Positions 8,967 to 19,191 of a stretch of DNA of 64,000 nt are shown here, one piece after another. The stretch lies in assembly GCF_030499535.1 (NCBI RefSeq), contig NZ_JASTLB010000001.1, positions 3,162,001 to 3,226,000 of the forward strand. Reading direction: 5' to 3'. Position 1 is the first letter of the stretch, and the number at the start of each line of letters is the position of its first letter. A model generated the notes under the pieces. The model saw only the letters and a list, made by a program, of their open reading frames with translations. It did not search any database and was not told the origin of the DNA. A program made the position numbers and the translations under genes. Origin of the DNA: Streptomyces sp. TG1A-8. GTDB lineage: Bacteria > Actinomycetota > Actinomycetes > Streptomycetales > Streptomycetaceae.

Positions 8967-9038
8967 GGACGCAAACGCTACTGCCACACCCCCCGTCCTC
9001 GGTGCTCCGAGCGGATCCCGGCGACTTACCCTGGACAC

Positions 9039-9893
9039 GTGCCAAAGACGAAAAAGGCGAAGGACGACAAATTCGCCAAGGGTCCGAAGGATCCTTCACG
9101 GGTGGGGACGTCCGGCTCCGACACGGTCCCGCAGGTGAGCGACGAGAAGGGACTCGACTTCGCGCGCGCATGGGTGGAGTTCCCCGATCCGGCGGACGGC
9201 GAACAGGTCTTCCGGTGCGACCTGACCTGGCTAACCTCTCGCTGGAACTGCGTCTTCGGCAGCGGCTGCCAGGGCATCCAGGCGGGCCGCGCCGACGACG
9301 GCTGCTGCACGCTGGGCGCCCACTTCTCCGACGAGGACGACGAGAGGCGGGTGGCCGGGCACGTGGCGCGGCTCACCCCCGACATCTGGCAGCACCACGA
9401 CGAGGGCGTGCGGGGCGGCTGGGTCTCGGAGGACGAGGAGGGCTCCCGGCAGACCCGGCCCTTCCAGGGATCGTGCATCTTCCAGAACCGGCCCGGTTTC
9501 GCGGGCGGGATGGGCTGCTCGCTGCACATCCTCGCCCTGCGGGAGGGCCGGGAGCCGCTGGAGACCAAGCCGGACGTGTGCTGGCAGCTGCCGGTCCGGC
9601 GGACCTACGACTGGATCGACCGGCCGGACGACACACGGGTGCTGCAGGTGTCGATCGGTGAGTACGACCGCAGGGGCTGGGGCCCGGGCGGCCACGACCT
9701 GCACTGGTGGTGCACGTCGGCGACCTCGGCGCACGGCGCGGGCGAGCCGGTGTACCTCTCCTACCGGGCCGAGCTGACGGAACTGATGGGCAAGGCCGGC
9801 TACGACCGTCTGGCCGAGCTGTGCGAGCGGCGGCTGGCTTCGCAGCTCCCGCTGGTCGCCCCGCACCCGGCGGACCCGGGGCGGACCCCCTAG
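9039..9893 (+). CDS. Cysteine-rich conserved protein, function unknown
   Basis: 284 residues with about ten cysteines clustered in [42 protein letters not shown] and WWCTS. The pattern suggests a bound metal or iron-sulfur cluster and is reminiscent of DUF3109/YkgJ-type proteins, though I cannot confirm that. The N-terminus is lysine-rich ([17 protein letters not shown]). The GTG at 9039 lies six bases after a TACCCT hexamer and lacks a ribosome site, so the message is probably leaderless. Its stop codon overlaps the stop of the convergent gene within the four bases CTAG. Confidence 0.85.
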
Positions 9894-11587
9894 TCGCCCG
9901 GCGGGTGCGGGGTGCCGTCGTCGGGCGGGGACGGTGACGAGGCCGGCGGGTCCGTCGGGGCGGGCTGCGTGGGGGCGGGGGGCCGGGTCGGCGAGGGCCG
10001 GCCGGACGGGGGGTCGGCCGGGGTCGTGGCCGAGGGGGCCGGGGCCGGGCCGGGTTCCGGGGGCGGTGCCGGGGAGGTGGCGGGGGCGGTGCCGTAGCCG
10101 TCGACGGTGACCACGGCGCCGGCCGGTGCGATCGCCACCCGGGCGTGCCAGTGGCCGGACGGTTCGCGCAGCTGGTCGACGTACACCTTGATCGTGAACG
10201 TCTCGCCGGGCATCAGGGTGCCCGTGGAGCGGCTGAGGTAGAGCCAGGTCGCCGGGGTGGACGCGGACCAGCGCACCGGTGCGGAACCGGAGGCGGTGAG
10301 CGTGACGAGCGTGGTGTCCCCCCGGGTGCCGGCGCCGACCGCGAGCCGCCCGGCGCCCCCGTGGCCGGCTCCGGTGACGCTGACGACCTCCACCGAGACG
10401 TCCGGCGTGCCGTCCCCGGTGTCGTGGGGGCCGGGTGTGACACGGGCGTTGCCGGTGTCCTCGTAGCCGCCCGCCGAGGAGCCGCCGAGGGCGTCGGGGC
10501 CCTGTGCCTCGCGCGCGGTGGCGGAGCGGGCGTCGTCGTCGGCGGTCGGCGCGCCCCGGTAGGCGGCCCACAGGGCGAGCACGGGCGCGGCGACGACGGT
10601 GGCGACGACGGTCGTGGTGACGGCACGCGCGCGCAGGCGCTCGCGGCGGGCCGCGCAGTCCTTGGGGTCCATCGGGAAGCCGCGCCGGTCGAAGCGCGGC
10701 AGGGCCGCCCCCCGCGCACGCGGGTGGTGCGCCAGCGCGACGTGCAGGGCCGCGCGGGGTGCCTCCAGGACGGGCAGCTCGGCGGGGGTGACCGTGGCGC
10801 CGGGCCAGGGGCCGGTGACCGCGCGCTCGGCGGTGCGGCGGCAGCGCGGGCAGTCGTCGACGTGCCGGACCAGCTCGCGGCGCAGGGCGGGGCTGAGGAC
10901 CGGCTGCCCGCCCGCGGTGAAGCGGGCCACGCCCGGGCAGCCGCCGGTCCCGGCCACGGCGAGCGCGGCGCGGGTGCGCTCCACCTCGCAGGCGGCGGAG
11001 GCCAGCAGTTCGCGGGTGGCGGCGGGCTCCATGCCGAGGACCGCGGCGACCTCGTGGGCGGCCAGGTGGTGGCGCACGGCCAGTTCCAGGGCCTCGCGCT
11101 GCTCGGGGGTGGTGCCGGCCGCCTCGGGCCAGGCGAGCACGGCCAGTTCCCGGCACCGCTGCTCCTGCGTCCCCGGGGCGGGGGACGGTGCGGTGTGCCG
11201 GCGGGCGCCCCTGGAGCGCTGCCCGGCGTCCGCGGGGCGCCCCGCCGCGCGGCCGGCCCGGCGGTCCGGTCCGGCCTCGGCGAGCCCGTGCAGGCACGCC
11301 CAGCGGGCCAGTGCGTACAGCCAGGCCCTGCGGTCGCCGGCGGCCTCCGGGACGCGCTGCCCGCGCCGCTCGGCGAGCGCGAGGACCTCCCCGAGGGCGG
11401 CGGTGGCCGCGTCGTGGTCGTACAGCACCGACAGGCAGTAGGTGAACAGGCCGTCCAGATACGGTTCGTAGCGGGCCGGGGGGCGCGGGGAGGCGAGGGT
11501 GCGCGCGGCGGCTCGATCGCGCGCCTCGCGGTGCGCCCGGTGCGCGCTGGTGGTGCGGGCCGTGGTCTCCGGACTGCTGCTCATCAC
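9890..11587 (-). CDS. Membrane protein joining sigma-like, zinc-finger and BACON-like domains
   Basis: 565 residues in an unusual order. Residues 40-105 resemble a degenerate ECF sigma region 2. Residues 158-208 form a region-4-like helix-turn-helix ([26 protein letters not shown]). Residues 240-250 (RHVDDCPRC) look like the anti-sigma zinc finger (H-x3-C-x2-C). One membrane segment lies at about 322-343. Outside there is a BACON-like beta domain (412-495, [18 protein letters not shown]) and a Pro-rich tail (500-565). Family members are usually named only BACON-domain proteins. The GTG start follows TACGGT by seven bases. Whether it binds DNA or RNA polymerase is unknown. Confidence 0.85.
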
Positions 11588-11784
11588 CCGTGCGACCGTA
11601 GGCGGCGCTGGAGCGCCTGTTCGCGCACCTTGAGCAGTTTTAATTCGTACGGGTGAAACGATCCCTCATAAGGGGACACGACCGCCTGGTTCCGTGGCGT
11701 GAACCAGGCGGTCGGTGGCCGGTTGCGGACCGCCCGCAGGTGCCCCCCGGCGGCATTGTCAGTGCCGCGGGCTACGGTTTCCGC

Positions 11785-14445: not shown

Positions 14446-15132
14446 ATGGATGCCATCTGCCTGGCCGAGGCATCCGCCTATGCTCGGCTCGTGCAGCCGC
14501 TTTCCGACAGCAGCAATCCGTTGATCACGGCGTTCCCAGCTGAGCTTGCAGGCGATGCCGAGGCAGTTCTGGCGTTGGTGCCTGCTTCTCGGCTCCAGCC
14601 GCATGCCTCGTTCTCGGTTGTTGTAGAGGGCCAGCAGGTTTTGATCCCTGGGCGCCTCTACAACGACGAGCCGCCGACCGACGCGGTGGCACCGCTTTCG
14701 TCGCGCCAACGGCAACTTCTGCACTGCCTGTACTCACGGCACTGCGACGGGGTGGTCAGACAGCGTCACCTGGAAAAGATCGTTGGTTCCACGGACCCAT
14801 GGGTCGTCCCCTTCGTCGTGCAGCTGGTTGGCGAGTACGTCTTGGAGATCCTGGTCGTTATCTGCGATGAGCTCCGTGATCTCGCCATGCCCGGCACCGG
14901 CGGCCACCTCGCTTACGGGCAGTTCATCGTGGACAACCCTGCCTTCTTCGCGCGCACTCAACGGCGGGTCGTGAGCTACTGGAGCTGCTACTACCGGGGC
15001 ACCTACACGAGTTTTCGGGGCTACCCGGGGTGCACTCTTCTTGACCTCCTACGGTCCGCTGCCTCCGACACAGCAGGGCATCCCTGGCCCAACCTCGCTC
15101 CCGCCGGCGCCAGGGCGGACGGCTGCTGCTAA
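14446..15132 (+). CDS. Passenger protein of the IS element, function unknown
   Basis: 228 residues from ATG 14446, which lies just inside the left inverted repeat. I do not recognise a family. Visible features: a Leu/Ala-rich first half, LSSRQRQLLHCLYSRHCDG (about 85-105), a hydrophobic helix VVPFVVQLVGEYVLEILVVI (about 123-142), and an aromatic stretch FFARTQRRVVSYWSCYYRGTY. Base composition is visibly less GC-rich than the neighbours. Its TAA stop overlaps the transposase stop, so both genes appear to belong to one unit. I recall similar proteins as common hypotheticals in Streptomyces, but cannot verify this. Confidence 0.7.
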   Translation: MDAICLAEASAYARLVQPLSDSSNPLITAFPAELAGDAEAVLALVPASRLQPHASFSVVVEGQQVLIPGRLYNDEPPTDAVAPLSSRQRQLLHCLYSRHCDGVVRQRHLEKIVGSTDPWVVPFVVQLVGEYVLEILVVICDELRDLAMPGTGGHLAYGQFIVDNPAFFARTQRRVVSYWSCYYRGTYTSFRGYPGCTLLDLLRSAASDTAGHPWPNLAPAGARADGCC

Positions 15133-16279
15133 ACCTGGCCGGGCAAGGTCGCAGGACGGTCAAGCGGCTCGGCGAGGGGACGTCTGCCCCAACGGATGCC
15201 CTTCTCGCTGCGGATGCGAGCGCGCTCGCGGCGCTGGGCTGCCAGCACGTCGGGTGACGGGCATTCGCGTTGCGCCAGCGCAGATAGGCGTGCAGGGTCC
15301 GGGTCTGCACGGTGTGGTTGCGGTGGTTGGAGTTGGCGATGGTGAACTGCCGCAACGGCCCGAAGTGCGCCTCGATTGGGTTGGCCCAGGACGCGTATGT
15401 CGGGGTGAAGCACAGCTCGACGCGGTTCTTCTTCGCCCAGCAGCGGATCGCCTCGCCCTTGTGGGCGGAGAGGTTGTCCAGGATGACGTGGATGGGGGCG
15501 CCGTCCGGCCGGGCGGCCCGGATCGACCTGAGCGCGGCCAGTGTGTTCGTGGCGCCCTTCTTGCGGCGGTTGATGCCCCAAAGCGTGTCGTCGCCGACCG
15601 AATAGCAGCCGTGGAAGTATCTGACGCCGTGGGTGCGGTGGTAGGTCGCCGGGTGCCGCTCGGGGTGACCGGCGGGGGCCCAGCCCGCACCGCCGGTGGG
15701 GCGGATGCCGAGCGGGCCGAACTCGTCGAACGCGAAGACCCGGTCCGGGAAGCGGTCCAGGACCTCCTCGATCCGGTCCAGCTTTGCCTCGCGGTCGGGG
15801 TCTGGGGACTCCTTCCACGTCTTGGTGCGCTGGAAGGTGATGCCGCGGCGGGCGAGCAGACGGCGTAACGCCTCGCGGCCGATGCGGATGACCCGCCCAT
15901 GGACTTTCCGCAGGTAGGCCAGCAGTTTGCGGATGGACCAGCGGGTGAAGGGCTGGCCGAGCTTGGTCGGGCGGGTGGTGGCAGTCTGGACGACGAAGTC
16001 CTCGTCGTCAGGACTGAGCAGGCGGGGACGGCCTCCCGCCCACCGAGGGTCCAGACAGGCCATGCCGATCTCGTTGAACTGGTGGATCACATCCCGGACG
16101 GTGTCCTCGTCGGCCTGCACCAGTTGGGCGATCACCGGGACCCGGTTCCCGCCGGCTGACGCCAGCAGCATCATCGCCCGTCGGAAGCGCACCGAACTGG
16201 TGCTGCCCCGGCGCACGATCTGCTGCAGCTTCTGCCCCTCCTGGTCGGTCAACCTGCGCACGCGGACAGGCTCAGCCAC
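15129..16279 (-). pseudogene. IS630-family transposase, frameshifted near the C-terminus
   Basis: A DDE transposase of the IS630 type. N-terminal helix-turn-helix region (residues about 10-130, starting MAEPVRVRRLTDQEGQ from GTG 16279 with a GGGGG site). The catalytic triad is visible in FAFDEFGPLG, VILDNLSAHK and YASWANPIEAHFGPL. At about 15250 the frame breaks: reading continues sensibly (PDVLAAQRRERARIRSEKGI) only in another frame, and the total length is one base short of whole codons (1,151). The break falls after the catalytic residues, so only the last 40 or so residues are lost. Unrepaired, translation runs into the passenger antisense. Confidence 0.85.
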
Positions 16280-16327
16280 CGCACCCCCAGCACTCGGATC
16301 GGACGTCACCACACATCCAACCGTCCC

Positions 16328-16363
16328 GACCACCAACCCGGTGAACCAATGTGGTCAGAGCAC
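16328..16363 (-). repeat. Right terminal inverted repeat of the IS element
   Basis: Read on the minus strand it begins GTGCTCTGACC at 16363, matching the left end. It is followed outward by the TA duplication at 16364-16365. Confidence 0.88.
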
Positions 16364-18377: not shown

Positions 18378-18651
18378 CGTCCGGTGGGCGCGGGGCACCG
18401 GGGACTTCCGTCACGGCCCCCGCCGCCGGTCACATCACCACATGACGGGACATGGAACCCGACCGCCCTACCCCGTTCCTCCTTCCGTTACACAACCGAC
18501 GGACAGCCGATTGCCGGCCGCGGGCTGCTCCGCACACCCCCGTGACAACCGTTCCGTAGCTTCTTCCACGTGCCCGGCGGATCACGGGCCGGCGGACAGC
18601 GGGACTTCGGGCGCGAGCCGGAGCGAAACGGGGAAACGGAGGCGGTCGATC

Positions 18652-19191
18652 ATGGCGCAGGGCGAGGTGCTCGAATTCGAGGAGTACGTGCGCACCCGGC
18701 GGGAGGCGCTGCTGCGCAGCGCCCGCCGGTTGGTCCCGGACCCGGTCGACGCCCAGGACCTGCTGCAGACCGCGCTGGCCCGGACGTACGGCCGCTGGGA
18801 CGGCATCGCCGACAAGCGGCTCGCGGACGCCTACCTGCGCCGGGTGATGATCAACACCCGCACCGAGTGGTGGCGGGCGCGCAAGCTGGAGGAGGTCCCG
18901 ACCGAGCAGCTGCCCGACGCGTCCGTGGCGGACGTCACCGAGCAGCACGCCGACCGCGCCCTGCTGATGGACGTCCTGAAGGTGCTCGCGCCCAAGCAGC
19001 GCAGTGTCGTCGTGCTGCGACACTGGGAGCAGATGTCCACGGAGGAGACCGCCGCGGCCCTCGGCATGTCGGCCGGAACGGTCAAGAGCACGCTGCACCG
19101 GGCGCTCGCCCGGCTCCGCGAGGAGCTGGAGGCCCGCGATCGGGACGCGCGCGTACTGGAGCGGGAGGAGCGGAAGCGTTGCGCGGCCTGA
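18652..19191 (+). CDS. sigE: ECF sigma factor SigE, cell-envelope stress
   Basis: 179 residues, close to the S. coelicolor SigE I remember. Region 2 (VLEFEEYVRTRREALLRSARRLVPDPVDAQDLLQ, about 5-70) and region 4 with helix-turn-helix (STEETAAALGMSAGTVKSTLHRAL, about 130-153). In S. coelicolor its transcription is switched on by the CseC-CseB pair when the wall is damaged, and there is no protein anti-sigma factor. GGAGG lies nine bases before ATG 18652. The 270-base upstream region has ACAACCG twice, 53 bases apart, and no good -35, fitting activator dependence. cseA overlaps its end. Confidence 0.95.
   Translation: MAQGEVLEFEEYVRTRREALLRSARRLVPDPVDAQDLLQTALARTYGRWDGIADKRLADAYLRRVMINTRTEWWRARKLEEVPTEQLPDASVADVTEQHADRALLMDVLKVLAPKQRSVVVLRHWEQMSTEETAAALGMSAGTVKSTLHRALARLREELEARDRDARVLEREERKRCAA

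Follow-up and report, generated by a model that had tools for sequence, protein, structure and literature searches.

A conserved Streptomyces membrane protein with sigma-like domains that lack the usual sigma contact signatures

The window analysed here (the whole stretch of 64,000 nucleotides from Streptomyces sp. TG1A-8, contig NZ_JASTLB010000001.1) contains, between ppx and radA-disA, an open reading frame (ORF) that encodes a protein of 565 residues. In this chain sigma-like domains are followed by a zinc anti-sigma domain, then a membrane helix and, on the outside, an Ig/BACON domain. Judged by profile comparison, structure prediction and the behaviour of its relatives, the likeness to sigma regions 2 and 4 is genuine homology; the sigma part seems to have retained its shape but to lack the surfaces by which sigma factors normally switch on genes. 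It is somewhat probable, in our judgement, that this is a membrane signalling protein derived from an extracytoplasmic function (ECF) sigma factor, the sigma part of which is now a non-transcriptional mimic or switch rather than a promoter-recognition factor.

Domain layout and selection

The features of the gene are listed below by position in the window.

9890-11587, minus strand: whole ORF, 565 amino acids, GTG start, aligned with 80 orthologous loci
11258-11467, minus strand: sigma-2-like domain, about residues 41-110, with Gly in place of the region-2.2 Gln
10952-11161, minus strand: sigma-4-like domain, about residues 143-212, with an Ala-rich, neutral recognition helix
10841-10939, minus strand: zinc anti-sigma (ZAS) core resembling a class I anti-sigma domain (ASD), C217...H242-x3-C246-x2-C249
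10727-10756, minus strand: helix from secondary-structure prediction, residues ~278-287, in the position of ASD helix 4 (putative role)
10658-10699, minus strand: juxtamembrane motif of 14 residues, containing Gly-Phe-Pro (GFP)
10559-10627, minus strand: membrane helix, residues 321-343, from hydrophobicity and the ratio of nonsynonymous to synonymous change (pN/pS, 0.065)
10088-10402, minus strand: extracytoplasmic BACON_2/Ig-like domain, residues 396-500 (PF19190 match at 421-485)
9893-10087, minus strand: variable C-terminal tail rich in Pro, Ser and Thr (pN/pS 0.585)
11588-11784, no strand: divergent intergenic region toward radA, with a deeply conserved element at ~11646-11663

The ORF and the order of domains put forward in the initial annotation were recovered at these positions. 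BACON_2 (PF19190) was the sole Pfam model to match above its cut-off (29.9 bits against a gathering cut-off of 25), in agreement with the BACON-like outside domain that had been proposed, while a match to zf-HC2 remained below the cut-off. The membrane helix, too, was confirmed, the protein having a single clear hydrophobic peak at ~321-343. The H-x3-C-x2-C motif noted earlier was found as H242-V-D-D-C246-P-R-C249. Class I ASDs have an Hx3Cx2C signature and make contacts through helix 1 and helix 4 (PMC7406223); this zinc motif is present in the 565-residue protein. Its ligands C217, H242, C246 and C249 were each found in 81 of 81 orthologues, as was the GFP of the juxtamembrane motif.

Selection was measured as uncorrected pN/pS over 500 random pairs drawn from these 81 sequences, that is, the window plus 80 loci, of which 79 are titled Streptomyces and one 'Actinobacteria bacterium OV320'. 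The values were 0.24 for sigma-2, 0.15 for sigma-4, 0.30 for the zinc part, 0.33 for the N-terminus, 0.47 for both the BACON domain and residues 257-296, and 0.85 and 0.73 for two linkers. At this codon level the ORF is truly coding, and the idea that it might be a reading-frame artefact of high-G+C DNA was discarded. The sigma-like domains are, by the same measure, under strong purifying selection and not in decay, since their pN/pS stays at 0.15-0.24 across the orthologues. The lowest values of any segment were those of the juxtamembrane motif (0.077) and the transmembrane (TM) helix, which contains an invariant Pro; in a 54-row family alignment Gly303 was invariant and Phe304 and Pro305 nearly so. 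Because this segment is the most constrained when compared within this protein, it may be recognised by its sequence, either within the membrane or next to it.

Sigma homology and contact signatures

A profile of the Streptomyces orthologues (9 of the 120 Streptomyces-type proteins offered had no cutting motifs) was compared by hhalign with 16 sigma proteins encoded in this genome. It matched with probability 97 and a score of 69.5, both regions being covered, whereas 30 column-shuffled profiles scored no more than 19.6. The top PDB matches of an AlphaFold2 model of the protein were ECF sigma factors (with a Foldseek E value of only 0.01), and in this model the sigma domains are predicted to adopt a closed arrangement. 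The likeness to sigma regions 2 and 4 proposed initially was thus borne out by the profile match with its shuffled controls and by the predicted structure. NCBIfam gave a weak sigma-factor match over residues 45-187 (E 1.6e-4), far below the cut-off, and no match to TIGR02937 was seen at E ≤1.

Curated sigma models were passed by relatives of the protein. The Pfam cut-off for Sigma70_r2 was exceeded in 5 of the 9 sister-family relatives tested. Scores against TIGR02937 (ECF superfamily, cut-off 42.9) were 79.5 for P0144, 73.7 for P0140, 42.9 for a Carbonactinospora copy and 30.7 for one sister-family copy (copy A of L032), and across these relatives they show what reads as a graded loss. A protein search returned 2,836 relatives at E ≤0.001 among 7,987 scored. 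The names given among the 120 matches listed, where there were any, were BACON domain-containing or hypothetical protein, some sources using sigma24 or sigma-70 family. When the Carbonactinospora copy was used as the query, 86 relatives were obtained; Sigma70_r2 and Sigma70_r4_2 were both precomputed in 17 of them, one of which also had BACON_2. Sigma homology was accepted because the profile match with its shuffled controls, the ECF-first PDB matches of the predicted structure and the relatives that pass curated sigma models all point to it.

Sigma factors usually bear two contact signatures, a Gln in region 2.2 for core RNA polymerase and a basic recognition helix for -35 DNA. Their fate was followed in an alignment of 126 rows (1 of 127 sequences was omitted as it did not match the seed profile): 16 canonical sigma factors, 18 Streptomyces-type proteins, 7 B copies and 7 A copies of sister-family tandem pairs (see below), and 78 other relatives, which include near-copies of the B copies. 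The canonical rows are 16 of 28 sigma ORFs extracted from 43 genome places and include two fusions of the same genome, L140 and L141; the Streptomyces-type group was assigned by hand and includes four proteins without names (P0126, P0134, P0191 and P0193). The Gln was present in 12/16 canonical rows, in 28/78 of the other relatives, and in none of the Streptomyces-type (0/18), B (0/7) or A (0/7) rows. The mean net charge of the recognition helix was +2.3 for the canonical sigma factors, -0.1 for the Streptomyces-type proteins, -1.6 for the B copies and -0.7 for the A copies; the sole canonical row with a charge below +2 was L137, in which region 4 seems to be truncated or misaligned. Among the 81 orthologues the Gln position held Gly in 73, Ala in 7, Arg in 1 and Gln in none, and the helix had a net charge of 0 in 79.

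In the 110 family rows of this alignment the helix charge lay between +1 and +3 in all 28 rows with the Gln. The mean was -0.4 in the 82 rows without it (one being a gap), 13 of which had a charge of at least +1. The loss of the Gln and of the basic helix therefore largely coincides across these rows, which are related and do not represent independent events. Zinc ligands, by comparison, are kept in 105 to 109 of the 110 family rows; the strict Hx3Cx2C spacing is altered in 4 of the 7 A copies (L032, L034, L036 and L037). The initial annotation had held that its sigma assignment would fail if the predicted structure lacked sigma folds or the DNA-contacting residues were not conserved: sigma folds are predicted, but conservation does not extend to the usual signatures for contact with the core and with DNA.

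Gene neighbourhood and history

The arrangement ppx, orf9000, sigma-like gene, radA, disA was kept in 7 of 8 Streptomyces regions and in all three further ones; in the eighth (L029) radA and disA were present, and ppx and orf9000 were absent from the ~5.8 kb retrieved beyond the gene on its other flank. Of 16 genomes of the genus, its own included, 14 contained the gene; the two without a match are both fragmented, one assembly having 630 contigs (79% complete) and the other 740 (98% complete). In all seven regions from sister families (one from f2, six from f3), the names of which suggest Carbonactinospora and Actinospica or similar, a tandem pair of members lies between radA and ppx. Copy B had a BACON_2 match in 7/7 of these regions; no BACON match was seen in copy A in any of the six, of seven, tested with Pfam. 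In these pairs (L031-L037) copy A mostly ends in a Ser/Thr-rich tail, and that of L031 ends without a strong hydrophobic peak. Outside the taxonomic order, 26 disA regions were drawn from the 47 genomes of other orders in which DisA was matched; none of these regions held a member (the rest of those genomes was not searched), while radA was found in 25 and ppx or orf9000 in 17.

In a tree, the root and some long branches of which are unsure, copy B and the Streptomyces-type proteins formed one group (100/97), which copy A adjoined. The Gln was present in 0 of 45 rows of the joint clade (91/80), as against 13 of the 17 family rows outside it. Sigma surfaces appear to have been lost early in the clade, with the fold kept under selection.

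In the intergenic region toward radA, the element around GATCGTTTCACCCGTACG (core 11646-11663) was almost invariant in the 77 of 81 upstream regions that could be aligned, the other four being unusable. Of the regions checked for its core pattern, 7 of the 8 from Streptomyces had it and none of the 7 from sister families. An ECF-type promoter was sought in the 77 aligned regions, and the conserved element is not known to match any ECF promoter. Immediately before the radA start lies TTGTCAGTG-N8-TACGGT (11756-11778), which resembles the mycobacterial RecA-independent DNA-damage promoter; similar patterns occurred in 45 of the 77 upstream regions. This genome also has, in the same intergenic region, a perfect 13-bp inverted repeat with arms at 11680-11692 and 11701-11713.

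As for the neighbouring genes, orf9000 (9000-9893, plus strand, start uncertain), between ppx and the sigma-like ORF, has a Cys-rich stretch and is ~55-70% identical in the other-order regions where it was found; no Pfam or NCBIfam family matched it above the cut-off. A transposase with DDE_3 and HTH_29/HTH_32 domains (14924-16336, minus strand) lies directly downstream of disA, and ~7 kb off is a canonical ECF sigma factor (18442-19191, plus strand), in which Pfam finds both sigma regions.

Possible roles and comparison with known fusions and mimics

If the protein is a signalling switch or mimic, the reading favoured here, its ancestor would have been an ECF sigma factor that was already joined to a zinc anti-sigma domain and a membrane helix and had an Ig/BACON domain outside. 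The sigma part would still fold, and is predicted to be held closed in a state like that bound by an anti-sigma factor, without the signatures for binding core RNA polymerase and -35 DNA. The BACON domain might sense an event at the cell surface, and the signal would pass via the highly conserved juxtamembrane/TM segment, either by a conformational change or by intramembrane cleavage. The sigma-shaped module would then be exposed or freed and could bind another protein, for instance a separate anti-sigma factor, in PhyR-like mimicry. A wider proposal is tentative and, on the whole, doubtful: that these proteins form a conserved class of transmembrane receptors in Streptomyces and the sister families, in which a dead sigma and its own anti-sigma domain serve as the switch. 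The sigma fold would be a decoy or mimic tethered to the membrane; by titrating other anti-sigma factors it would pass on cell-surface signals through mimicry, not through a promoter set of its own.

Less likely than the favoured reading, and unlikely overall, is that this protein still works as an ECF sigma factor, tethered to the membrane together with its own anti-sigma domain, released by regulated intramembrane proteolysis as proposed for ECF52 (SCO4117) and making unusual contacts with the core and with DNA. Several observations would suit such a factor and so weigh against mimicry: the domain order is the same as that of ECF52; the extreme juxtamembrane/TM conservation, with an invariant Pro in the TM, would be in keeping with site-specific cleavage by a membrane protease; there is strong conservation of sigma-2 and sigma-4; and the Gln is also missing from 4 of the 16 canonical sigma rows, among them the ECF52-like L141. 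Yet neither contact signature is retained, the recognition helix is conserved in its neutral state, and PF19190 is the sole precomputed Pfam domain among the 120 matches listed. The curated models count on both sides: that neither Sigma70_r2, Sigma70_r4_2 nor TIGR02937 reached its Pfam or NCBIfam cut-off in the 565-residue protein speaks against the sigma descent on which mimicry depends, and, with the relatives P0140 and P0144 passing TIGR02937, it also speaks against a working sigma. The initial annotation had offered both a membrane-tethered sigma released by cleavage and a degenerate relative with an adhesive or sensing role. The former is weakened by the unconserved contact signatures, although sigma folds are predicted; the latter is favoured over it because core- and DNA-contact signatures are unconserved, a preference qualified by the strong constraint on the domain.

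That the protein is a structural or adhesive envelope protein, with BACON at work outside and the sigma/ZAS part as an inert cytoplasmic anchor, seems improbable. BACON is indeed the sole part above a curated cut-off, and its fold resembles MSP/ASH/PapD-like Ig domains, but with a pN/pS of 0.47 it is under weaker constraint than the TM helix and the sigma-like domains (0.065-0.24), the reverse of what an inert anchor would lead one to expect, and sister-family copy A retains the cytoplasmic part with no BACON match in the six copies tested. Sub-threshold sigma scores and the missing match in 2 of 16 genomes might be taken as signs of a former sigma factor drifting toward loss. Such decay is contradicted by the codon-level selection on the sigma-like parts, by the presence of the gene in 14 of the 16 genomes and by the zinc ligands kept in 81/81 orthologues, and is very improbable.

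Sigma and anti-sigma parts are, as the initial annotation had it, separate proteins as a rule, but one-chain fusions are established and, although little studied, known. ECF52 (SCO4117 of Streptomyces coelicolor) is a sigma/zinc anti-sigma/membrane fusion with developmental effects, for which proteolytic activation has been proposed (PMC5826349); ECF48 and ECF53, for which it has been predicted, are sigma factors that carry a zinc anti-sigma domain at the C-terminus and have either one or two membrane helices; and IutY of Pseudomonas putida (ECF243) is a sigma fused to its own membrane anti-sigma, activated by Prc and RseP (PMC8999054). The order sigma-2, sigma-4, zinc anti-sigma, TM and outside region in one chain is as in the ECF48/52/53 kind, the sigma parts being assigned by homology and not by curated cut-off, and the 565-residue protein is, on this comparison, a conserved variant of a known fusion architecture.

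With ECF52, as described (PMC5826349), it shares an actinobacterial origin and a single chain of sigma-2, sigma-4, zinc finger, membrane helix, Pro-rich stretch and outside domain; with ECF48 and ECF53, the sigma, C-terminal zinc anti-sigma and membrane helix. Two more fusions, L140 and L141, occur in the same genome, each with Sigma70_r2, an Hx3Cx2C motif and a hydrophobic peak. L141, taken as the SCO4117 counterpart by domain content alone, has a Sigma70_r2 match of 48.8 bits, a basic recognition helix (+3) and a C-terminal NPCBM domain, whereas the 565-residue protein has a sub-threshold sigma-2, a neutral helix and BACON_2 outside, followed by a Pro-rich tail; no NPCBM-type carbohydrate-binding domain was found in it with Pfam. 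L140 (C1:3529600-3532200) ends in a glycosyl-hydrolase-like Glyco_hydro_cc domain (162 bits), keeps the Gln and the basic helix, and was the top scorer of the 28 sigma ORFs against the family profile, the zinc region being part of that profile. IutY resembles the protein in being fused to its own membrane anti-sigma but is a working sigma in iron-starvation cell-surface signalling, and the passages available mention no BACON domain for it. No prior description of a BACON/sigma fusion was found in a library of openly licensed PMC papers.

What sets the protein apart from the known fusions is that its sigma surfaces look gone: a widespread Streptomyces gene beside radA-disA has kept a sigma fold, a zinc site and a near-invariant membrane segment, and not those surfaces. 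An annotation as 'sigma24 family' need not always denote a sigma factor. Were it a working sigma after all, the usual contact signatures would be dispensable. PhyR, a cytoplasmic response regulator, has a receiver domain and a sigma-like domain that acts on NepR as an anti-anti-sigma by sigma mimicry. The 565-residue protein is, in contrast, membrane-bound, and no receiver domain was detected in it at Pfam E ≤1; if the mimic reading is true, the PhyR principle would extend to membrane proteins of Actinobacteria.
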